From contig JABYQU010000042.1 of assembly GCA_022264855.1 (NCBI GenBank), positions 186,001 through 250,000 of the forward strand: 64,000 nucleotides of DNA, in the 5' to 3' direction. A program made the translations under genes and the position numbers. The stretch comes from Lenzites betulinus. Taxonomy: Eukaryota > Basidiomycota > Agaricomycetes > Polyporales > Polyporaceae. The notes below the pieces were generated by a model. The model was not told where the DNA came from. It worked only from the letters and a program-made list of their open reading frames with translations, and did no database searches. Positions 3,622 to 41,475 of this stretch are shown piece by piece (the first letter of the stretch is position 1; each line of letters begins with the position of its first letter).

Positions 3622-4977
3622 CACTTGTGGTTTCCCCCATTGTATTACAATGGGCCCACGTACCTGCTAAAACCTGTGTGTATTCAGTGGTCACCTGGAG
3701 TTATTGTTAATCTGGCCCCCAGGTGTTGTACAAAGCCATTAATGGTTGTTAAACTGTACAGTGTTGTTATTGATTGTTAAATAGAGCGCATTTATACAAT
3801 GGACCCTAGGATTGTCAAATGATGTTAATCATTGTTAAAAGCTGCTTTGGATGTTGTTAATGGTTGTAAAATGAGCCCTGAGATTGTTTAATATTGTTAA
3901 AGGCTGCTTGGGATGTTGTTAATGATTGTAAAATGAGTGCCTGCTTGTAGGTCCCTGTTTACCGCTTAATGGGCGCTTTTTTGGCTTCCTAATAGGGTAG
4001 GCATACCAAATGACCGCATTTGGGCGCTTTTTTGGCTTCCAAATGGGGCAGGGGCCTACTACCACCCCCTGGGGGCTCCCTTTTGGCCCCCCTGGGCGCA
4101 TTATTGCCCCAGTTTGTGCCCTATGTATATGTGGTGATTATGATACATACTAGGGTGTTCTGTAGGGGCCAAAAACCGACCAAAAGCAGTCAAAAATGCG
4201 AACCCAGGGCAGGGGTCAGCAGGTCCTGGTAGGTGCATGCAGCATATAATTGGTTCCTCTGGGCCCATTACATTTATCAATATATCATTTGAAAGCTATA
4301 GCTCAGGGCTTTCTGGGACAGCTATTTTCATAACCTACGATGCTGTATTGATGAAGATATGGCCTTTCGCATTTTCGCAAAAAGAAGCCATTTTGTTTTC
4401 CCAATAGCTCCTGATCCAGGGCACCTATAAATTCACCCAATACACCGTTGGATTTGTATTTAGCAGACCTTCAAAAAGAGCCTACTCTCAGGATATTCCA
4501 TCCACATGTATTCTGCCCCTCCTCCTGCCTCCCTGCCAATAGATCGCCCTTCAGGGCCCTCAGTTCCTGATAGATTCCCTTGAAAGCCTTTGCAATGTGT
4601 ACTGGCAATATATCCATACATATTTCTAGCTTGGCATGATTTAGAACAGCCTACCCCTTCCGTGCCCCCTTGCCGTACATTTGGTGCACTTCTAGCTTGT
4701 TTGCTCCATAATATTATACCCTGTGTAGATATGGCCCTGCTCTCTTTTGCATGTTGTCTGTGTATACTATAGCTACCAATAAATATGCTCAAAAGTGTTA
4801 TCGGACATCTGGATCTCTTATAGGCTCCTTATCAGTGGCCCACAGAGTAGCCCAATCTGTCGCATTTTGGGGGCATATTATTTAGATCAGACAGCACAGC
4901 TGTACTGGCATGGTATTCAGGATTACGTTGCACTAAACATCATGAGATTTGGTGGAGAAGTGACGGAGGTATGGAGG
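3622..4977 (+). repeat. Left arm of the palindromic element
   Basis: Inverted copy of 5077-6432. Within the arm, near 3840-3940, there are two degenerate direct repeats around the phrase GATGTTGTTAATGRTTGTAA, and GGGCGCTTTTTTGGCTTCC occurs twice (about 3970 and 4021). One visible substitution between the arms is CCCTAGG here versus CCCCAGG in the mirror. Confidence 0.88.
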
Positions 4978-5076
4978 GAACACCTCAAAACAGCCCTCTG
5001 ATGCAGTTGGTGAAGAATACATGAATGCACTGCTGTAAGCTGTGCTTGTGCATGTAGACCACCGTTTGGGATATTC

Positions 5077-6432
5077 TGCCCATACCTCTGTCACTTCTCC
5101 ACCAAATCTCATGATGTTTAGTGCAACGTAATCCTGAACACTATGCCAGTACAGGTGCGCTGTCTGATCTAAATAATATGCCCCCAAAATGCGACAGATT
5201 GGGCTACTCTGTGGGCCACTGATAAGGAGCCTATAAGAGATCCAGATGTCCGATAACACTTTTGAGCATATTTATTGGTAGCTATAGTATACACAGACAA
5301 CATGCAAAAGAGAGCAGGGCCATATCTACACAGGGTATAATATTATGGAGCAAACAAGCTAGAAGTGCACCAAATGTACGGCAAGGGGGCACGGAAGGGG
5401 TAGGCTGTTCTAAATCATGCCAAGCTAGAAATATGTATGGATATATTGCCAGTACACATTGCAAAGGCTTTCAAGGGAATCTATCAGGAACTGAGGGCCC
5501 TGAAGGGCGATCTATTGGCAGGGAGGCAGGAGGAGGGGCAGAATACATGTGGATGGAATATCCTGAGAGTAGGCTCTTTTTGAAGGTCTGCTAAATACAA
5601 ATCCAACGGTGTATTGGGTGAATTTATAGGTGCCCTGGATCAGGAGCTATTGGGAAAACAAAATGGCTTCTTTTTGCGAAAATGCGAAAGGCCATATCTT
5701 CATCAATACAGCATCGTAGGTTATGAAAATAGCTGTCCCAGAAAGCCCTGAGCTATAGCTTTCAAATGATATATTGATAAATGTAATGGGCCCAGAGGAA
5801 CCAATTATATGCTGCATGCACCTACCAGGACCTGCTGACCCCTGCCCTGGGTTCGCATTTTTGACTGCTTTTGGTCGGTTTTTGGCCCCTACAGAACACC
5901 CTAGTATGTATCATAATCACCACATATACATAGGGCACAAACTGGGGCAATAATGCGCCCAGGGGGGCCAAAAGGGAGCCCCCAGGGGGTGGTAGTAGGC
6001 CCCTGCCCCATTTGGAAGCCAAAAAAGCGCCCAAATGCGGTCATTTGGTATGCCTACCCTATTAGGAAGCCAAAAAAGCGCCCATTAAGCGGTAAACAGG
6101 GACCTACAAGCAGGCACTCATTTTACAATCATTAACAACATCCCAAGCAGCCTTTAACAATATTAAACAATCTCAGGGCTCATTTTACAACCATTAACAA
6201 CATCCAAAGCAGCTTTTAACAATGATTAACATCATTTGACAATCCTGGGGTCCATTGTATAAATGCGCTCTATTTAACAATCAATAACAACACTGTACAG
6301 TTTAACAACCATTAATGGCTTTGTACAACACCTGGGGGCCAGATTAACAATAACTCCAGGTGACCACTGAATACACACAGGTTTTAGCAGGTACGTGGGC
6401 CCATTGTAATACAATGGGGGAAGCCACAGGTG
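5077..6432 (-). repeat. Right arm of the palindromic element
   Basis: Inverted copy of 3622-4977. A 108-codon minus frame (5259-4936) starts in this arm, crosses the unique core and ends in the left arm. Its first 60 codons are shared with the plus frame at 4795-5001 because of the symmetry. It contains DYVALNIMRFGGEVTEVW, which I cannot assign to a family; it may be a relic of an ancestral transposase or chance. Confidence 0.85.
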
Positions 6433-8792: not shown

Positions 8793-8876
8793 AGGAGAGC
8801 CTGGCAGGCACTGGGTGCGAGACGCGTGTTGTCCGAGTATCTACAACGAGACCTGCTGTGAAGCAGGATATGCCGG

Positions 8877-9748
8877 TGATACGGTAAGAGGTGCTCTGAC
8901 GGCCGATAGCCGAGGGGTAGAGGACGTCTAGGTGTGTGATGAAGGGGAGTAAGGTCTCGAGCTCCCTAGGTTCACTGGTAGGCCGGTCCGTATACTGTTC
9001 GCGCGCGAGCAGGAGGGAGGTTTCTCGCGCACCGGGTGGGAGCGCGCGCGGACTCGCGCTGTAGAGGGGGCGCGCGCGGAGGTAAACTCAGTAACGCAAC
9101 GCGCGCAGGAATAACGCAACGCTCGCAGTCAGCCGCGGGGCTTCGCAACGCAGTACGCACGCAGTAAAACGCAGGAGGAACGGAATAGACGCAATATACG
9201 CAACTGACGGTACGCTGTCACAGCGGAGAGGTCTCCAGTCGTCCTGCCTTGAAGGGGAAGCTGTTGCACGTTGAGAAGCGCGAGGGACACGTTCCCAGCA
9301 GTTGAGAGAGTGAGGGGTGGATTGTCTGGGGGGTTCGAATGCCCCGAAATGACTATGTACAAGAATGCCCGCAGGCTGAATCAAAAACACGTGCTACCAC
9401 ACGGAAGATAAGCGGAAACCGGGCCCGGGATGCCTCGCGCGCCGGGCGCACTCGCCGCGCGCGATCCGACTCTTCGCGCGCCTCGTGCGCGCGCCACTGA
9501 TGCGCCCAGCGGACCCGCGCGCGCGAGCAGCTAGGGCAGAGGGCTCTGGATAGCGACAGGCATCGCGCGCGCCGTGGTGAAGTGCCCCGCGCGCATCTTG
9601 ACCTTGCGCGCGATGGGCTACGCGCACTGCGCGCGCGACGTAGGGGGTGCCGAAGTGTGCGGTGGGCTCTGCGCGCGCTGTGGTTGGCGTGCGCGCGCAA
9701 GGGTGGAGAAGGAGGGTTTCTGGCCTGGAACGCCTGTGAAGCGTATCA
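8877..9748 (-). repeat. 3' LTR (in element orientation), 872 bp
   Basis: Same sequence as 13481-14352. It is very rich in CGCGCG runs in its right half. Short ORFs of 60-115 codons within it are identical in both copies and have no recognisable domain; I treat them as incidental. Confidence 0.92.
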
Positions 9749-9760
9749 TCTCCCCCCCAC
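9749..9760 (-). other. Polypurine tract
   Basis: On the minus strand GTGGGGGGGAGA immediately precedes the LTR start TGATACG. It matches in form and position the tract at 2183-2193 of the first element, and with the primer-binding side at 13477 it sets the element's orientation. Confidence 0.75.
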
Positions 9761-9812
9761 TAAAATCTTGACCGCCCCGGTCAACGCGATCGATGCCGGA
9801 GGTCCTTGGAAG

Positions 9813-9819
9813 TATAAAG
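9813..9819 (+). promoter_or_regulatory. TATA box of the antisense cargo
   Basis: TATAAAG lies 41 bases before the first cargo ATG, on the plus strand and outside the LTR. The cargo genes therefore appear to have their own promoter, transcribed against the retroelement genome. Confidence 0.55.
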
Positions 9820-9859
9820 GCGGGTGGGGTATAGGATAGAGGCCGACCCTGCCGCCACC

Positions 9860-10511
9860 ATGAGCATGACCCTAGAACAACTCTTGCAAGTCGGTGTCGA
9901 GCTGCGCAGCCTTCATCCTGACGCCACCCTGCCTAGGATCGACCGCGCGACCAACGCACTGCGTCGGGTCGTTGAGGGAGGACGTGGTTCGGAGGGGGAC
10001 TTGCGCGCGCGCATAGCTGCCGTGGTGCGCGCCTTTGTGAGTCGCGCGCGCTGCCTCCGCGCGCTGTTGCTGACCGCGCGCGCAGGAGGCCCACTACATC
10101 GTCTACCCGCGCGGGGCCACGCTCGCGGAGCGCGTAGAGGCCGTCGAGGGGATCGTCGCGGCCATTCCGCCCGAATTCGGGCTCGCGCGCGTCTTTGAGG
10201 ACGAGTTCTACGCCATGCGCACCAGAGTCGCGCCGATGATCTTCAATCAGTGGCTGCCGGTCCTCGCGCTGCTAGAACACCGCGCGCGCGAGTATCGCGA
10301 CGCTCTGGTAGGCCTGCGCGCGCTGGATCCAATGAACGCGCCAGCTCCGTCGACCTTGGTCCGCGTCGAAGGGCACTTGCAGGACATCCAGGACTTGAAG
10401 CGCGAGCTAGTCAACGCACAGTTCGCCTATGGGGAGGGGGACTTGGACATCTTGGAGAGTAACGACGCCCATGGGGACGCGCGCACGGTTCCGTGGACCG
10501 CGGAAATGTAG
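9860..10511 (+). CDS. Antisense cargo gene 1, 200 aa, unknown function
   Basis: Start ATG is in a strong context (GCCGCCACCATGAG). A 49 bp intron (10037-10085, GTGAGT...GCAG, phase 0) joins 9860-10036 to 10086-10511, giving 200 residues in frame. The N-terminal half reads MSMTLEQLLQVGVELRSLHP and is helical and Leu-rich. The second exon has REYRDALVGLRALDPMNAP and ends GDARTVPWTAEM. No transmembrane segment, signal or catalytic motif is recognised. Codons are extremely CG-rich. The intact splicing and long helical amphipathic pattern argue that it is a real protein; its function is unknown. It lies upstream of cargo gene 2 on the same strand inside the LTR element. Confidence 0.6.
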
Positions 10512-10932
10512 AGGGCTGCGCGCGCTATAGGGAGACACGGCCGCGCGCGACTGTAGGGCACCGGGGACGCGGACTTGGAGAAATAAACAACGTTTGTGAC
10601 GTCATCCTCGCGCCGAATGCCTCAGATCCTCGGATTTGCGGCCCGGAATGGCGGTTCCATTGTCTGCACTTCGTTCCCAAAGTCCGGTAGGTCCGTCAGG
10701 GTCGCCCACGGGGCAGGCGCGCGCTTGAGCCCGTCGCGCGCGCGGCTCCGCGGACCTCGCGCATTGCCGCGCGCGTAGCGCCTAAGCGCGCGCTCATGCA
10801 GGGTCGCGCGCGAGGTCGCCGCGCTATTGTCCTCGCCTCAGAAAAGGCCTGACCGCCCTTCGTCGTTTTTCGCCTCCTTCCTCCTTCTCCCCACCTTACT
10901 CGCCTCGCTCATCCCTCCTGCCGACCTCCGCT
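10512..10932 (+). other. Intergenic between cargo genes
   Basis: CG-rich noncoding stretch with AATAAA at 10580 (possible polyadenylation signal of cargo gene 1), then a pyrimidine-rich leader (10855-10925) before the ATG of gene 2. No TATA box was recognised here. Confidence 0.45.
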
Positions 10933-12755
10933 ATGCCTGCCCCATCCGCATCCACTCAAACCTGGGGAGGGAAGGACGAGCAACTCGTCCGCGCGCTGGA
11001 GACCGCGATGGCGCCGGTGTGGAATGGGGAGCCCGGGGACGACGCGACGGACAGCGAGTGCCGCAAGTGGGCCCGCCGCGCCGCGCGCATCCTGGTATGT
11101 CCGCGCGCGCTGCTTCCTGTGTTGCCAGCTGACTGATTTCGTCGTAGGACTCAGCGGGGGAGGCGCTCTGCCCGCCGTTTGTCCTCAACTCCCACGCCGA
11201 CGCAGTGTGGACGCGCGCGTCCGAGGCCTTCGCGGCTGACGACTCCGAGTGGCCGGAGTGGGCGCGCGGACAGCTGCTCACCGCGCGCAAGCGTCGCGCC
11301 GCCGCCGAGGCTGAGCGCAAACGCCGCGCCGCCGCCGCCGAAGACTCCGACCCCTTCGCCGCCGCTCTACGCGACATCCAGGCCGCCACGCCGCCTCCTC
11401 GCACTCCGTCCGCGCGCAGCGGCCGCTCGCGCGCGAGCGTTCCCTCGGTTATCATCAGCTCGCGCGGCTCCAGGGCCTCCAAAAGCGCGCTCGCAGCCCC
11501 TCCGTCGAGCTCATCTCGCGCGACACGGAGTCGTTCCATCCGGACGACGAGGAGGAGACCGACGACGTCGAGATCGTCGATGGCCCCGCGGCCGACGACG
11601 AGGACGATCACGCCAGCGACGACGACGCCGCCATGAGCGTGGACCGCGCCCCCTCGACCGCCTCCACACGCGAGCTACGTCCGCGCGCGCCTCGCGCGAA
11701 TCCCCCGCCGCCCAAGAAGAGGGCCAAGATGATGGTCCCGCGCGCCGCACAAGCCGCAGAGCCCATGCTCGGGAAGAACTGGCGAGTAAGTCCCCCTCCG
11801 CGCGCTTTCGATGTCGCAGTCGCGCTGACTCTCTCCCAGCAATACGAGCGCTGCAACAACTGCCGCAAGTCGGCCCTCCTCTGCGTCCTGGGCGAAGGGG
11901 CCACCAAGTGCCACCGGTGCGCGCGCCGGCGCCAGAAGTGCGCCACCCAAGCGGACGAAGACTACGCCGAGTGGTACGACGAGCAGGGGTTCGAGCGCGG
12001 TAGTTCTCCACGCTACACACCCGCGCGCGCGACTAACATTCCCTCTTGCAGCGCGCGTCATTCTCGACTCCGCCGGGAACGTCGCCGGCGCGGACTTCAT
12101 AGGTCCCGCCCCCGCCGACTTCGTCCCCGCGACCTCGGAGCCGTCCACGCCGCGAAGGGGAAGAAGAAGGCCACCGCGGCCACTGCCTCGCCCGTCCAGC
12201 CTGCCGCGCGCGCATCCAAGCCCGCAACGCCTGCCTCGGCGCAGGCCACAGCTCCCGCGCGCCCGGTCGCTTCTTCGTCCAGGCCCACCGCGTCCGCCTC
12301 CGCGCCCATCGCCTCGTCGTCCAGGACCGCCCCGGACCGCGCGTCAAACGCCGGCGTCGACCCCGGCCGACTCTCCCGCGGGCAAGACCGCTGCTCCCGC
12401 CACCGCGCGCGCTCCGCCCCAGCCTCGCCCTGTCGCGCGCCCGTCTCGCACGGTCTCCGCGCCGGTCTCGACCGCGGCCTTCATGCCGCCGGCCGCCCCC
12501 ACCGGTTTCCTGCTTGGCGCGCCGGCTGCAATACGGCCTCAGGACCGCCTGTCCAACCCCAACGACCCCGCGGACATGTCGCGCGGCCGGCGCGCGGCGC
12601 TGCAAGTCGCGCGCGTCGAGCTCGAGGTCTTGGTTATGCGGCGCAACGGACTCCTCGGCCTCAGCCAGCTCCTCGAGGACTGGATCGCGCGCATCCTGGC
12701 CGACCCGACGGACGAGACGGTGCCCGCGCTGTGGACCCCGCCGACGCGCGAGTAG
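10933..12755 (+). CDS. Antisense cargo gene 2, Zn2Cys6-type cysteine cluster protein
   Basis: Exons by eye: 10933-11094, 11148-11785 (with one unresolved change of frame around 11400-11450), 11840-11999 and 12052-12755. Introns are 53, 54 and 52 bp with GT...AG, the last with a GACTAAC branch-like motif. Exon 2 has an Ala/Arg-rich helix and then an acidic segment (VELISRDTESFHPDDEEETD). Exon 3 carries cysteines spaced C-x2-C-x6-C-x8-C-x2-C-x6-C (11852-11941). That fits the consensus of fungal Zn2Cys6 DNA-binding clusters, with Lys/Arg around the second half. Exon 4 is Pro/Ala-rich and ends in a helical segment with ELEVLVMRRNGLLGLSQLLE. The frame change in exon 2 may be an unrecognised intron or a real lesion. 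Similar cysteine clusters occur in repeat-linked basidiomycete proteins, so a regulatory role is inference only. Confidence 0.6.
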
Positions 12756-13014
12756 AGTAACGGCGCGCGCGCCTTAGACTTGTAGATACTTGTAGATAGG
12801 CATGCAGTCTTGCTCCTGTACATAGCACGCTTGTCTTGGGAATTGAGTCCGCGCGCGCGTGTGCGTGTGGCGGTATCTTCTTGGTCTCCTTTTGGTGTGA
12901 ACTGTAACGACTGACTAGAGTTAACTTGAATGGAAAGAAAAGGGTATCGAGCGCGCGCGCGAGAATGCGCGCGCGCTTTGCACGTTGAAGTACTGTTGAC
13001 TCTCCCGCGCGCGC

Positions 13015-13419
13015 CTACTCCGCGATGTCCTCGTCTTCCGCGCCATCGTCTTCGGAGTACACCAGCTCCGTTAAACGCTTGTCCGAGATGTCCGCAAAGT
13101 TCGGAGGAAGCGCAACGTACTGGCGCGCGAAGTAGGGGATGAGTCGGAATGCCCCAATGGGGCGATGAAACACTGTGCCGTCCAGCTCGCAGACCACATA
13201 CGCGCCTCCGCGGTTACGTGAGACTACTACGACGGGTCCGGTGTACCGCGCGCGCATCTTGCGGTTGAGCGACTTCTCGATTTGGGTGTGTCGTACCAAG
13301 ACGAGCGCGCCGGCCCCGAAGTCGAAGTCGCGCATAGCGAGCAACTCGCGCAAGGCACTATCGAGCAGTTCCGCAGCTAGGTCGGACGCCGTGGTAGCAG
13401 CGCGCGCGCGCAGTCGGCT
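13015..13419 (-). pseudogene. Gypsy pol remnant: integrase C-terminal domain
   Basis: About 134 codons open on the minus strand. They contain DFDFGAGALVLVRHTQIEKS, then KMRARYTGPVVVVSRNRGGA, then ELDGTVFHRPIGAFRLIPYF. This is the SH3-like C-terminal domain of gypsy/Ty3 integrases of basidiomycetes and the natural C-terminus of a pol polyprotein. The frame is closed by TAG at 13420-13422, and nothing upstream of it resembles pol. The rest of the polyprotein has been deleted, with the junction near 13423-13460 next to the primer-binding site. The acidic end (SEDDGAEDEDIAE) is intact. Confidence 0.88.
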
Positions 13420-13459
13420 CTAGGGTGCGTTCCGAAGGTGTAGGTCGAGATCTGAAACC

Positions 13460-13477
13460 CCCTCGCGGTGGGCTCCA
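13460..13477 (-). other. Putative primer-binding site
   Basis: Three bases after the LTR end on the minus strand is TGGAGCCCACCGCGAGG. It begins with the TGG expected to pair with a tRNA 3' CCA. The tRNA species was not determined. Confidence 0.5.
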
Positions 13478-13480
13478 AAA

Positions 13481-14352
13481 TGATACGGTAAGAGGTGCTC
13501 TGACGGCCGATAGCCGAGGGGTAGAGGACGTCTAGGTGTGTGATGAAGGGGAGTAAGGTCTCGAGCTCCCTAGGTTCACTGGTAGGCCGGTCCGTATACT
13601 GTTCGCGCGCGAGCAGGAGGGAGGTTTCTCGCGCACCGGGTGGGAGCGCGCGCGGACTCGCGCTGTAGAGGGGGCGCGCGCGGAGGTAAACTCAGTAACG
13701 CAACGCGCGCAGGAATAACGCAACGCTCGCAGTCAGCCGCGGGGCTTCGCAACGCAGTACGCACGCAGTAAAACGCAGGAGGAACGGAATAGACGCAATA
13801 TACGCAACTGACGGTACGCTGTCACAGCGGAGAGGTCTCCAGTCGTCCTGCCTTGAAGGGGAAGCTGTTGCACGTTGAGAAGCGCGAGGGACACGTTCCC
13901 AGCAGTTGAGAGAGTGAGGGGTGGATTGTCTGGGGGGTTCGAATGCCCCGAAATGACTATGTACAAGAATGCCCGCAGGCTGAATCAAAAACACGTGCTA
14001 CCACACGGAAGATAAGCGGAAACCGGGCCCGGGATGCCTCGCGCGCCGGGCGCACTCGCCGCGCGCGATCCGACTCTTCGCGCGCCTCGTGCGCGCGCCA
14101 CTGATGCGCCCAGCGGACCCGCGCGCGCGAGCAGCTAGGGCAGAGGGCTCTGGATAGCGACAGGCATCGCGCGCGCCGTGGTGAAGTGCCCCGCGCGCAT
14201 CTTGACCTTGCGCGCGATGGGCTACGCGCACTGCGCGCGCGACGTAGGGGGTGCCGAAGTGTGCGGTGGGCTCTGCGCGCGCTGTGGTTGGCGTGCGCGC
14301 GCAAGGGTGGAGAAGGAGGGTTTCTGGCCTGGAACGCCTGTGAAGCGTATCA
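13481..14352 (-). repeat. 5' LTR (in element orientation), 872 bp
   Basis: Direct repeat of 8877-9748 with no difference seen on reading both copies. The identity and equal length are the dating evidence for the element. Confidence 0.92.
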
Positions 14353-15769
14353 CCGGTCGTTGCGCGAAACGCGCGTCAGCGTGGACAAACTAGTAGACGT
14401 GAAGAAGATGCGTACCTCGAGGGCGAATACTCAAAGTGCCGTGGGTTGATAGGATGTGGAATCCGTTTTGTTCGCGGGAGGGCGGGCGCGAAACACGCCT
14501 CGTTGAGGGATTAGGATTCGACGCAACGGAGGATCTTGAAGAGCGTCGTCGCCAAGGGGGGCATATCGCATGCCGTTGGAAGAAGTGGCGGGCGAAGTAT
14601 AAGGCACGTACCGTATTGCAGAATCGTCCACGCGAGGGTTTTGAGCGGAGGCGGTTTGACACCAGTGTTGTGGGCTGTGGGGCGGCTTGACGCGAATGTA
14701 AATGCTGTAGCGAGGTAGCGTTGGTTCAAACGGGGGTCGTCGCAGGAGTGTAGAACCGAGTTCTCCGCGGCAGTGGTGGAACGTGCGTTGGGGAGGAAAG
14801 AGGGAGTTGCGCGTTAGTATTATCCCGCGCTCCCGTGTCTTCATGCCCGGGGGCGCCGGTCCCCCCTCGCCATCGCGCCTGGCATGCCTCTACCTCTGGA
14901 CACCCGCGCCATAGCGTTGGCCGATTCCAGTACGCCGACGCATAATCGCGTCGTGGTGCTCCCGTACGCCTGCGGTGTCTCGCCGATGCACAGCGGCCTT
15001 TGCGTACCGCGCAGCTGGCTCGATGATTGCGATGTATCGTCGATGCGCCGCCCTGTTGGTGTATGCCCGCGCTACAAAGGCAACGCGTCATATCGCTGGC
15101 GTACATCCGCGAGCCCTGATGAGGAGGCCTGCGCTGCGTAACTGACGCCTTCCTCACTCACGCTGTGCATCGTCGACACGCCATGTCGTTGGAGTACATC
15201 CACGCGGACCTATCGATGCGCTGGCGTTCGTTCGCGCGGCATAGTCGGCGCATCGGTGAACGCCTGTGCATCGCAGTCTCGCGATCTCGCCGTCGCAGCT
15301 GCATGCCCCGCGGTGCCTCACTTGCGTGGCCGCGTGATAACGCTCCGGTATACCGGCTCTGTCTCGATCGCGTATACTCACGCCGTCGCGTCGTGGTGTT
15401 GTGAACGTCCGCGGCGTTGCGCCGTCCAGCTGCGACATGATCGTACTTTCGCGACCGCGAAAACTGGAGCTACGCCCGTCAATTCACTGCAACCAAGGTG
15501 AGCGTTATGTTCTTCCGGAGGAGCGCTTGCTTACCACAGCGGCCGGGATTTATATCGAGATATCAGCTTGATATTCGGTTAGTACAGTTGAATACGGGCC
15601 GAGAGGACTTAATGCATCCCGGTAGAACGCCAGGCTGTACAACACATACTCATTACGCACCTCTATATAGCTTCCACGAATATTTCTCTTGACCTACATG
15701 ACGCGAGCGGGGGATCGAAATGCCCCACCTCATTTATGAATGATTACTATATTGGCGGGAACGACGGGA
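14353..15769. other. 1.4 kb without a recognisable gene
   Basis: Flank of the LTR element, starting with the CCGG duplicate. Minus-strand frames to 143 codons (14726-15157) have no family look and overlap equally long plus frames. If the HicA-like remnant at 8471-8792 was once part of a longer gene, its upstream exons should lie here, but I could not find them. Confidence 0.35.
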
Positions 15770-37659: not shown

Positions 37660-38990
37660 GTCGCTCGTCAACGTCTGCGCCCCCGCGCCCCCCGCGCCCC
37701 CCGCGTCCGCCTCGCCGTCTGCCTCGCCACCTGCATCCGCCGACACCGCCAACGTCTGCGTCCCTCGTGGACGCCTGCGCCCCGCGTCCCGCCAACGCCT
37801 GCGCCCCGCGTCCCCGCCAACGCCTGCGCCCCCGCGTCCCCGCCAACGCCTGCGCCCCCGCGTCCCCGCCAACGCCTGCGCCCCCGCGTCCTCGCCGACG
37901 CCGGAGACGCCTGCGTCCCCCGCGTGCGCCCGCCGTCCACCTCGTCGCCTGCATCCGCCGACGCCGCCAACGTCTGCGTCCCTCGTGGACGCCTGCGCCC
38001 CCGCGTCCCCGCCAACGCCTGCGCCCCCGCGTCCCCGCCAACGCCTGCGCCCCCGCGTCCCCGCCGACGCCTGCGCCCCCGCGTCCCCGCCGACGCCTGC
38101 GCCCCCGCGTCCTCGCCGACGCCGGAGACGCCTGCGTCCCCCGCGTCCCCGCCAACGCCTGCGCCCCCGCGTCCCCGCCAACGCCTGCGCCCCCGCGTCC
38201 CCGCCAACGCCTGCGCCCCCGCGTCCCCGCCGACGCCTGCGCCCCCGCATCCCCGCCGACGCCTGCGCCCCCGCGTCCTCGCCGACGCCGGAGACGCCTG
38301 CGTCCCCCGCGTGCGCCCGCCGTCCACCTCGTCGCCTGCATCCGCCGACGCCGCCAACGTCTGCGTCCCTCGTGGACGCCTGCGCCCCCGCGTCCCCGCC
38401 AACGCCTGCGCCCCCGCGTCCCTCGTCGACGCCTGCGCCCCCGCGTCCCCGCCAACGCCTGCGCCCCCGCGTCCCTCGTCGACGCCTGCGCCCCCGCGTC
38501 CCTCGTCGACGCCGGAGACGCCTGCGTCCCTCGTCGACGCCTGCGCCCCCGCGTCCCCGCCCGCGTGCGCTCGCCTTCCACCTCGCCGCCAGCGTTCCCC
38601 GCGTCTGCCTCGCCTGCGCCGCCGACGCATGTCTCCGCCCCGCCCGGTGCGCCTGGCTGCCGTGTCTGCCTCGCCGCCTGCGTCTCCCGCATCCGCCTCG
38701 CCGTCTGCCTCGCCACCTGCGTCCGCCTCGCCACCTGCGTCCCCCGCGTCTCCCCCACCGACGCCGCCGACGCCTGTGTCCGCCTCGTCGCCTGCGCCCT
38801 ATGTCCTTCCGCGCCTCCGACGTCCGCTTCGCCGTCAGCGTCCGCGGTATCTGCCTCGCCGCCTGCGTCCCCCGCGTCTGTTCCGCCGACGCCGCCGACG
38901 CCACCGATGCCTGCGTCCGCCCCGCTGGGTGCGCCTCGCCGCCTGCGTTCGCCTCGACGCCTGCGCCCCCAGCGTCCGTCTCACACGCTG
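37660..38990. repeat. GC-rich 26-bp minisatellite
   Basis: The core (about 37,790-38,560) is built of a 26-bp unit, ACGCCTGCGCCCCCGCGTCC plus CCGCCA, with variants CCTCGCCG and CCTCGTCG. A higher-order block containing CGCCGTCCACCTCGTCGCCT recurs about 390 bp apart (near 37,930 and 38,318). Decayed C-rich units continue to about 38,990. Because 26 is not divisible by 3 and the unit lacks stops on either strand, every frame on both strands is open for hundreds of codons. The minus strand has GGGG and GGGGG runs and could form quadruplexes. I call no gene here. Confidence 0.9.
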
Positions 38991-41475
38991 GGACGTGTCC
39001 GCGGCGTTCACGCAGTGGATCTTAGAAGCTGTGTGGGCGTAGTCGCAGTGGCGCCCAAACCAAGGACGTTTGTGAAGTGCGCCAGAACTTCTCAGGCATA
39101 AATTACTAAGATACAAAACTTACACAGTGATGTTTCAGACATGTTGTAGTACCTCTTACCACAGGAATTTCGTTTGGCAAGGCTGGTCTCGCACATATAC
39201 GAGAGTAAAGAGTTCTGCTACACGAAGCGCCCGTATACTGTACTTTATGGACAAATATCATATATTCAATGCCATTCCGCGAGGAGGTTTTTCCTGATGC
39301 AGTATGTCGAACAAGCGAACCGGCATGTAAGGTATAACACTCAATAGAGGCGGACCTCTATCGACTACCAGAAGACCATCTGCCAGAAGCCTCGCATAGG
39401 TACCACTGACCAGCTCGGCATTCGAAGTTTTGATCCCGCCATGTTCGAGCGCAAGATTCATGATCTCCGGGGCAACAGCTGTGAGTTACCTCTATATTGT
39501 CAGCACAAGCGTGCTCCACATCCCCTTTAACAGGCACCCTACGCAACCCCCGAGCCCAACGTTCAACCCCCTCCCCCCAACAGCAACCTCAAGCCCAGTA
39601 CAATCCGCGACTGCACGCGCTCAACCATATTCTGAATCAGCGCCTTGGGCGCCTTGGAATGGCTTGGAACACTGGTCCGATGATTTGCACAATATCTTCA
39701 ACAACCCTACGTCGTCTTACCTCCATAATTTCCTGTGCCAGCAAGCGCGTGCCCCCGCGGCCCGGTCCCGCCCATACGGCAGAGCTACACTACGGCGCCC
39801 TCGCCCTCGCCGACCACATCAGCCACGCCGGCCGACATCGAACCTCGTCAGAGCGGGTCGTCTGACCCCAACCCATTCACGCCCATCCGGTGCTCGACGC
39901 TTGCGGGCCCGCTTGCCCCGCCTTCAACGAACTACGACCTAAACAGCCCAGCGGTAATACGCGAGCAGCTCGTGCTGCAGTTGCAGATGTACACGCTCAA
40001 CAACGGCCTCGCGCAGCCGTCGTCCGAATCCGCATTCTCGCACTCATCGATGCCCTTCCCCTGTCCAGCCTGTGCATGAGTGTTTGCCTCCGGCGCTGAT
40101 ACCTCTAACTTCAGCGCGCCCATGGTTGTCGCGAGTACGCGTTCCAGCCCTAGCCGCGAGCGTGTAAACCTGCCCCCGCTCCCGGTCATGTGCGGGCGGC
40201 GGCGCGAGACAAATAGACGGCTGCGCCTCGTCAAAACGCCAGTGCGGCAAGGCGTACTCGTGAAGCTGTTCCCGAGCGTGGACAGCATACAGCCGCGGAA
40301 AACGAGCGCGGCGGGTAAGGACGCTGCTTCCCCGACCCCTGCGTCTATCGGCGAGTTGAGTGCCCCGCTTACCCTCGCGGGCCTACGACGCGCCGGCGCG
40401 GGAACTATAGCCTCCAGTGCTTTAGGTAGTAGCTCGCTGATGTGCAGCCCGCGGTGCTGCGCGACCCGACGACTCGCCCAAGGGTTTGAGGCCGCCGCGT
40501 TCGCGGGTTCAGTCAGCGTCCCGTTGCTCCGAGCCCCGTTATAGTCATTCGTGGCGTCTCTGACTGTTTGTTTCTGCTCCATTGTAGGCTATTTTCTTTA
40601 GCCTTCCGCGTCGCTCGCAGGCGGTCCGACAGTCACGCATACGACGCGCGGGTTCATCGCGTATAGTTACAGTAGTTCTGTCGCGGCGACACGCCCCACG
40701 TGACCGTGTCGCGCGCCCTTCCGCACCCTGTACTATACATCCGCCTTCCGCCCCTCCACTTACGCGCTCTGTATCGTCTCGCATTATGTCTCTGGGCCGC
40801 GCTCATCATGTATATGTAATCGGGCGTTCAGGCCTCTACGATCACCTCGGTTTTAGCATTCATTTCCTGAGTGTCCCACCCAAGCCTCCCTCGTGCCGCC
40901 GCTCTTCGTCTCTTCTGCGGCGCCTGTCCGCGCGTTCTCCCTTTGGCTGTTTTATTCTAGTCACCACTCTCCTCGCTCGCAGCTCGTACACTCGTTTGCA
41001 CGAGTGCCCAGGTGTGTATTCGGTTCTACCTAGGCGACGCACGCGTACCTACAGGTATCTCCTCGCACCCACAGCACTTCTCTAGATCGCCACCCAGGGA
41101 CTCGCCCGCTACTGTCTACGACCACCTAGGGCATTTGCTAAGTTCCCTGGCCTCACCATCCAGTCCCCATGGCAGCCACACCCATCCCCTGTGCCCATCA
41201 CTCACCCTCAATAACCTTTGCTCTGATCCCTCGGTGGATATATCCAGGATATATCCAAGATGTATCCCTGTCCAGTGGGATATACCCTCACACTGAACCC
41301 CCTTCCAGTGCAGATGTATCCTCTAAACTGAAGCTACTCTCCCTCCGCGCTTCTCTGCGTACCGCGCCGCCGTAAGGGCACCCGACGCGAACCTTGCATC
41401 TCCTCGCGCTCCGCGAGACGTCTTCGCAGCCCGGTCTCGACCTTCTGGGCTCTCGACCGTCTCTTTCATCCGGCC
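38991..41475. other. 2.5 kb with no secure gene
   Basis: A plus frame 39430-39942 has one plausible segment (ESAPWAPWNGLEHWSDDLHN), then decays into Arg/Pro-rich shadow sequence. A minus frame 39932-40582 is equally weak. Near 41,228-41,300 are GGATATATCC motifs like those at 6765-6906. I cannot assign anything to a family. Confidence 0.35.

Follow-up and report, generated by a model that had tools for sequence, protein, structure and literature searches.

Introduction

Long terminal repeat (LTR) elements replicate through a genomic RNA that runs from LTR to LTR, and a gene lying on the opposite strand is copied together with its introns. Among retroviruses, human T-cell leukemia virus type 1 (HTLV-1) has an antisense gene at its 3' end, HBZ, which is spliced, is driven from the LTR and encodes a bZIP protein acting as a nuclear regulator. 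One review places the antisense promoter of HTLV in the 3' LTR (PMC7264820). According to the same source, antisense genes of plant LTR elements have been on record since at least 1997, their function not being known (references in PMC7264820), and in the group termed aORF-3R (Grande with its gene23, RIRE2, Retand and PvRetro13) the gene lies between pol and the 3' LTR in most copies, a promoter of its own is found upstream of gene23 and some of the products are nuclear. In fungi, the Boty elements of Botrytis and Sclerotinia are recorded as carrying an antisense gene, brtn (PMC7264820), which is the additional open reading frame (ORF) of BcGypsy1 (PMC8365987). Here we describe an LTR element of the basidiomycete Lenzites betulinus located at 8877-14352, on the minus strand and read from 14352 leftwards, in a window of 64,000 nucleotides, this being the whole stretch of DNA analyzed (contig JABYQU010000042.1 of assembly GCA_022264855.1, hereafter C46:186001-250000); the genome searched comprises 37.4 Mb in 108 contigs.

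With HBZ, the locus shares the antisense position at the 3' end, splicing being read here from signals alone and a nuclear role being predicted, while HBZ is an LTR-driven bZIP gene and the genes described here have a TATA box within the internal region; the likeness is one of layout. The position of an antisense gene between pol and the 3' LTR is common to this fungal LTR element and to Boty/BcGypsy1 of Botrytis cinerea and Sclerotinia sclerotiorum (PMC7264820, PMC8365987), but the latter are ascomycete elements with one antisense gene whereas two spliced genes are found here, a comparison made by description. The plant aORF-3R genes occupy the same place and differ in kingdom; the word intron is absent from the review (PMC7264820), and the likeness is again one of layout. 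An initial sequence-only reading of the window knew of no fungal element of such design with two multi-exon genes. A single antisense gene is on record for fungal elements, in Boty/brtn (PMC7264820); in the literature searched (open-licence papers, mostly titles and the beginnings of abstracts) neither a basidiomycete case nor two spliced antisense genes were found, and the part of PMC5408684 examined contains no antisense gene in rotifer elements. In being two in number, spliced and maintained in related families, the antisense genes found here are new relative to the known antisense-gene elements, and they illustrate a rule, namely that a retroelement can carry intron-bearing genes if these are antisense.

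Structure of the element

The window copy is very probably a young, gag-pol-deleted member of a family of Ty3-like LTR retrotransposons which carries two spliced antisense genes, gene 1 and gene 2, together referred to as the cargo. Its 5' LTR (13481-14352, minus strand) and 3' LTR (8877-9748, minus strand), 872 bp each and both with TG...CA ends, show no differences, and because of this identity the copy is considered young. The element is enclosed by a 4-bp target-site duplication, CCGG, at 8873-8876 and 14353-14356. A duplication of the same length is implied by a solo LTR (L034, C30:12802-16595) nested in opposite orientation in the cargo of another copy, with INT 789-792 on either side. 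Inspection of the LTR-adjacent sequence located a polypurine tract (PPT), AGTGGGGGGGAGA, at 9749-9761 (minus strand), adjoining the 3' LTR, and the stretch on this side is recognizable in the related family-B elements described below (86% over 37 in C43 and 80% over 49 in C60).

An 18-nt primer-binding site (PBS), TGGAGCCCACCGCGAGGG, is situated at 13460-13477 (minus strand), 3 nt inside of the 5' LTR, and matches tRNA 3' ends of the same genome. In fact, 11 tRNA-like 3' ends fitting GTTCRANNNNNNNGGTGGGCT are found in the genome, compared to none for a reversed control pattern, and with CCA added eight of them match 18 contiguous nucleotides of the PBS, the other three matching 14. At the primer tRNA locus L075, ARAGORN in bacterial mode calls a tRNA-Arg (TCT), and the same program called no tRNA at L076; read by eye, with no tool result, L075 is an intron-bearing tRNA-Lys (CTT). 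Self-priming was also considered and rejected, as a scan of the LTR for perfect complements, 8-15 nt in length, to the initial 20 bases of the PBS region found none. Since the PPT, the 18-nt PBS and the integrase remnant all point to the minus strand, the orientation of the element is settled; the LTRs, the duplication, the purine tract, the PBS-like site and the minus orientation proposed by the sequence-only reading are all confirmed. The LTRs, target duplication, PBS and PPT are those of a member of Ty3/Gypsy (Metaviridae).

The only gag-pol coding held by the window copy is, as previously claimed, the C-terminus of the integrase (13015-13337, minus strand), which is 94-98% identical to the integrase ends at the nine next best places. 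The ORF that contains it extends over 13015-13419 on the minus strand, and due to the gag-pol deletion its first 29 codons derive from the 5' leader. This leader (13338-13480, minus strand) is common to other 5' LTR copies, as judged by sequence matches in the genome, and the deletion junction, with a 4-bp overlap ATAG, maps to 13334-13337. The body (9749-13337) recurs in many copies and the leader (13334-13480) in others, their join being found, among the scored matches, at this locus only. The copy is a non-autonomous deletion derivative in which gag and most of pol are gone and the ends are intact. The antisense genes of the two-gene body first proposed are upheld, but this body results from a deletion in an element of larger design.

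Larger relatives are represented by a copy on C2 (L015, L073) in which cargo, integrase, RNase H and reverse transcriptase (RT) are joined on one contig. Its RT/RNase H frame has matches to chain 7q5b, which is Ty3 Gag-Pol (E 4.5e-14), and to 4ol8, a reverse transcriptase/ribonuclease H by its label (E 3.8e-15) and likewise a protein of Ty3. In Pfam searches an aspartyl protease scored above the cut-off in C76, and so did the integrase H2C2 domain in C43, where rve fell just below; H2C2 is also present at family-A places, family A being that of the window copy. A long gag-like sense frame follows the leader in L005 and L008 (contigs C26 and C54); it gave no Pfam match and is so named because of where it lies and because a CCHC-like stretch can be made out by eye. 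Likewise, C24 has, by coordinates, LTR, pieces of cargo, integrase and leader-like sequence on one contig. The order protease-RT-RNase H-integrase, with the integrase last and a Ty3-like RT, is observed in pieces from different copies, from which the full plan was assembled; regarding relatives with gag-pol plus cargo, the join on C2 provides one with part of pol, and none of the copies read ran from LTR to LTR with all genes intact.

Recurrence in the genome and related families

A search with the LTR returned at least 38 further copies of 96-99% identity (40 of 84 candidates were scored, two being the window's own). The LTR abuts the first base of the cargo at 23 places besides the window (C16, C98, C84, C47, C45, C62, C70, C60, C51, C20, C55, C22, C97, C78, C59, C4, C24, C30, C66, C49 and three on C12), and on the basis of these copies and junctions the LTR-cargo structure is far beyond chance. 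The upstream flanks of the 11 such copies examined all differ; that of L018 ends in the bases which in the window copy are found inside of the 5' LTR, and the LTR of L018 accordingly borders another copy. In addition, all 55 matches of gene 1 genome-wide fall within stretches already matched as element copies. The cargo is not limited to one locus and is very probably not composed of ordinary host genes beside independently inserted LTRs, two of the outcomes that had been put forward as contrary to the proposal, and it is well supported that the observation is real and the cargo not an artefact.

Integrases 70-78% identical to the window remnant are found on C43, C31, C98, C60, C81, C12, C87, C51, C72, C40 and C19. 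In the family-B elements on C43 and C60, plus-strand genes again lie between integrase and PPT: gene 1 has, by eye, an intron in phase 0 close to the codon where that of family A is interrupted, and the second gene encodes a Cys cluster followed by a WY motif. The stretch L072 (C60:242142-246600) seemingly holds, at 383-1894, two tandem gene-1-like antisense genes, each with an intron at the same place (by eye), which when compared to each other give a z score of 4.6, with 2 of 500 shuffles as good. A Pfam match of family-B gene 1 to RRM_NFXL1 was below the cut-off.

Genome-wide, 42 merged gene-2 loci were counted, 20 of type A, 13 of type B60 and 9 of type B43, based on 47 rows taken from 69 + 32 + 10, from which fragments and duplicate entries for a locus had been removed, and on 34 integrase places, of which 33 come from 65 match rows after removal of leader-only matches and fragments and one is on C22. 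An integrase is present within 9 kb of 27 of the 42 gene-2 loci (14 of type A, 8 of B60 and 5 of B43), and in 27 of 27 gene 2 is antisense to the integrase and on its 3' side, the aORF-3R arrangement. Seven integrase places are without gene 2 within 9 kb, two of them near contig ends; the other five carry integrases of 45-54% identity, and for this reason the cargo seems confined to one clade. One integrase of 46% identity (C55) has a gene 2 at 6.1 kb, a proximity that may be due to chance.

The antisense genes

Gene 1 (9860-10511, plus strand) encodes 200 amino acids in two exons, 9860-10036 and 10086-10511, separated by a 49-nt intron (10037-10085) of the form GTGAGT...CTGAC...CAG, as deduced, like the structure of gene 2, from the alignment of copies. 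Of 11 copies spanning this gene, nine have an intact frame, among them that of the window. A TATA box, TATAAA (9813-9818, plus strand), is placed 47 nt ahead of the ATG and, together with the start context GCCGCCACCATG, is present in 11 of 11 copies examined; both are kept in L020, though its promoter stretch differs by 21% from that of L013, and in L025, whose promoter stretch looks similarly different. A search of 5.8 billion protein sequences with gene 1 returned two short proteins, P0001 (81% identity over 67%) and P0002 (87% over 34%). A Pfam match of a gene 1 frame to HTH_51 was below the cut-off.

Gene 2 (10933-12755, plus strand) has four exons, 10933-11094, 11148-11785, 11840-11999 and 12052-12755, and introns of 53 nt (11095-11147), 54 nt (11786-11839) and 52 nt (12000-12051). 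In the intact copies L012 and L013 it encodes 554 amino acids. Compared to these, exons 2 and 4 of the window copy differ in length by single bases, which shifts the frame, and the donor of intron 3 is atypical. Of the two plus-strand genes with a TATA box and four short introns claimed initially, the layout and an intact gene 1 are retained, and the frame of gene 2 is disrupted at this locus. In L017, L019, L020 and L021 it is open as far as covered. Exon 2 sets the gene-2 types apart by five length differences, of 9, 12, 3, 6 and 3 nt, all multiples of three, and single-base differences are common outside the exons.

The third exon encodes a Cys cluster, CX2CX6CX8CX2CX6C, followed by YAEWY (11852-11977, plus strand). 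In six sequences of three gene-2 types (four of family A and two of family B) this exon displays 12 invariant columns, including the six Cys. The consensus of fungal Zn2Cys6 factors is CX2CX6CX5-12CX2CX6-8C, and the Cys spacing of family-A gene 2 fits it; in contrast, both family-B types depart from it, the second Cys being separated from the third by 7 and 11 residues. The 554-residue protein gave no match to Pfam Zn_clus at E up to 1, and Zn2Cys6 chains were absent from the results of a structure search, a PDB profile search with the Cys exon. It gave one weak match, to a peroxisome assembly protein (E 0.31), which was taken as chance; Pfam matches of gene 2 to Ribosomal_L37 and Caudo_TAP were below the cut-off and were dropped. 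Among the 5.8 billion protein sequences, a collection perhaps poor in fungi, no relative of gene 2 was found in the 7995 candidates sharing most words that were scored. The genome searches for the Cys exon used single proteins as queries. Basic stretches, such as KKRAR and KKRAK, were read by eye.

No intron is missing from any of the 13 aligned copy rows within the stretch that the row covers. That of gene 1 is near-identical among copies; those of gene 2 diverge by 30-40% from one type to the other, and GT, the CTGAC/CTAAC motif and AG stay, except in intron 3 of L012, which is without the motif, and of the window copy with its atypical donor. This agrees with the earlier reasoning that antisense introns survive reverse transcription, and is the pattern expected if the introns are not seen in the genomic RNA and are spliced from a plus-strand transcript; from these signals we infer plus-strand transcription of genes 1 and 2.

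The ratio of nonsynonymous to synonymous substitution rates (dN/dS, Nei-Gojobori) ranges from 0.00 to 0.22 for gene 1 (36 pairs, 9 copies) and from 0.09 to 0.24 for gene 2 (21 pairs, 7 copies). In five exon comparisons the predicted frame is without stops in all five, and most other frames display stops and dN/dS above 1. As judged from these substitution patterns, the antisense reading frames are under purifying selection, and the low dN/dS, the triplet length differences in exon 2 and the kept splice sites indicate a function of the proteins.

Recombination and deletion derivatives

Between copies of the two gene-2 types (dS 0.50-0.69 between types), gene 2 differs by 12-21%, in comparison with 2-3% for gene 1, 2-3% for the integrase end and 3-4% for the LTRs; intermediate values are found for the spacer separating the two genes, 6-8%, and for the sequence from gene 2 to the integrase, 7-15%. 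Moreover, L025 joins, by eye, exon 1 of one gene-2 type to exon 2 of the other. A diverged gene 2 among near-identical elements and this mosaic point to recombination among elements, as might take place by template switching during reverse transcription.

In three copies on C97, C78 and C47 (L022, L023 and L024), most of gene 2 is deleted and gene 1 and the integrase are still matched. They have one deletion in common, INT 1590 being joined to 2988 with an overlap of about 15 bp, and their flanks are different, which implies that a derivative lacking an intact gene 2 has spread. Since the deletion is common to these loci, gene 2 is seemingly not strictly needed in cis, and this suggests that it may act in trans or be dispensable to some copies. 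A 37-Mb genome that holds many copies, diverged gene-2 types, intact and broken variants and a common deletion makes the role of antisense genes testable.

Interpretation and alternatives

Building on the anatomy, recurrence, conserved splice and promoter signals and purifying selection demonstrated above, we propose that the full element would consist of LTR, tRNA-primed PBS, gag, protease, RT, RNase H, integrase, gene 2 and gene 1 in antisense, PPT and LTR. The genomic RNA started in the 5' LTR would retain the introns of the antisense genes, since splice sites go unrecognized when they lie on the opposite strand, and reverse transcription would copy these genes whole. The separate TATA promoter just inside the 3' LTR would drive plus-strand transcripts to be spliced and translated. 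The Cys cluster and the basic, nuclear-signal-like stretches suggest a nuclear, nucleic-acid-binding gene 2 protein, most likely a regulator of the transcription of the element or of host chromatin, and the product of gene 1 may be its partner, small and for the most part helical. To move, the window copy would need proteins supplied by other copies. Tentatively, and with somewhat less than even confidence, we hypothesize that one lineage of Ty3 elements in fungi has retained an ancient antisense block as a dedicated, HBZ-like regulatory module. This block, with promoter and introns of its own, would encode a nuclear protein bearing the Cys cluster together with its helical partner, would evolve through the swapping of deeply diverged gene-2 alleles among near-identical elements and would act in trans on deletion derivatives.

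Several results weigh against parts of this interpretation. Neither protein matched a Pfam family, and the searches of Pfam and PDB gave no support for gene 2 as a nucleic-acid-binding protein; exon 2 of gene 1 yielded a poor predicted model (mean pLDDT, the predicted local distance difference test score, of 66) and its fold search gave no significant match (best E 0.38). Gene 2 is fully open in only two of the seven copies that cover it entirely (L012 and L013) and broken in the window copy, L014, L015, L016 and L018, and exon 4 of broken copies has further length differences, not all multiples of three. Some of these breaks, for example the many single-base gaps of L014 and L015, may result from sequencing errors. 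The copies used for the gene-2 dN/dS were selected for open frames, L018 being cut ahead of its frameshift, and the mirror frame on the minus strand also has a low dN/dS (0.13-0.26 in five of five comparisons, once stop-free), since third positions face each other there. As a consequence, dN/dS alone cannot fix the coding strand, which is instead established from the introns, the promoter and the length of the frame jointly. The similarity of gene 1 between families A and B is marginal (z 2.3, 0.9 and 0.6 by shuffling), so that homology is based on place and intron. Finally, 15 of the 42 gene-2 loci are without an integrase within 9 kb, five of which lie at contig ends (C70, C37, C61, C4 and one on C30).

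Selection may act on antisense transcription and not on proteins, for instance through double-stranded RNA that limits the element. Such a role is named as possible for antisense genes of plant elements in PMC7264820, and the layout would yield overlapping RNAs, but we regard it as unlikely in view of the low dN/dS in the predicted frame, the triplet length differences in exon 2 and the kept splice sites. That the assembler dropped gag-pol from a full-length window copy, or that the joins between cargo and LTR are false, is in our view quite unlikely. Many other contigs do end inside the element, several copies have many single-base gaps and the deletion junction is confined to one locus among the scored matches; nevertheless, the join of cargo and LTR recurs at the 23 other places with different flanks in all 11 examined, which makes the cargo genuine, and the 4-bp overlap, perfect duplication and intact ends speak for a true deletion, this being the part that an assembly fault might still explain.

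It is very improbable that two ordinary host genes were flanked or captured by LTR insertions. Introns and promoters are host-like, and among the 22 loci of types B60 and B43 nine lack an integrase within 9 kb, yet the remaining 13 have one, always in the same arrangement, and no gene 1 match lies outside of known element copies. One of the nine, on C32, was read and turned out to be a degenerate, frameshifted remnant, and on account of its frameshifts, at 69-75% DNA identity to C43, it was also rejected as a host-domesticated gene 2. By eye, this old family-B gene-2 remnant (L077, C32:954800-958300) stands beside a transposase-like ORF.

Other features of the window

Outside of the gag-pol-deleted element, the window contains at 3622-6432 a near-perfect palindrome of 2.8 kb, with arms of 1368 nt that are 99% complementary and a centre of 75 nt. 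Its arm has 75 matches, mostly inverted pairs, on 28 contigs and thus represents a dispersed family, of which copies lie, by coordinates, inside LTR elements of the families described above, for example on C97, C78, C47, C98, C72 and C12. The palindrome of the window is flanked on both sides by TCGGACG and is embedded, by eye, within sequence resembling that immediately outside the gene block of the family-B element on C43, perhaps its LTR. In addition, 37700-39000 is taken up by GC-rich repeats in tandem, most of them spaced at 26 bases.

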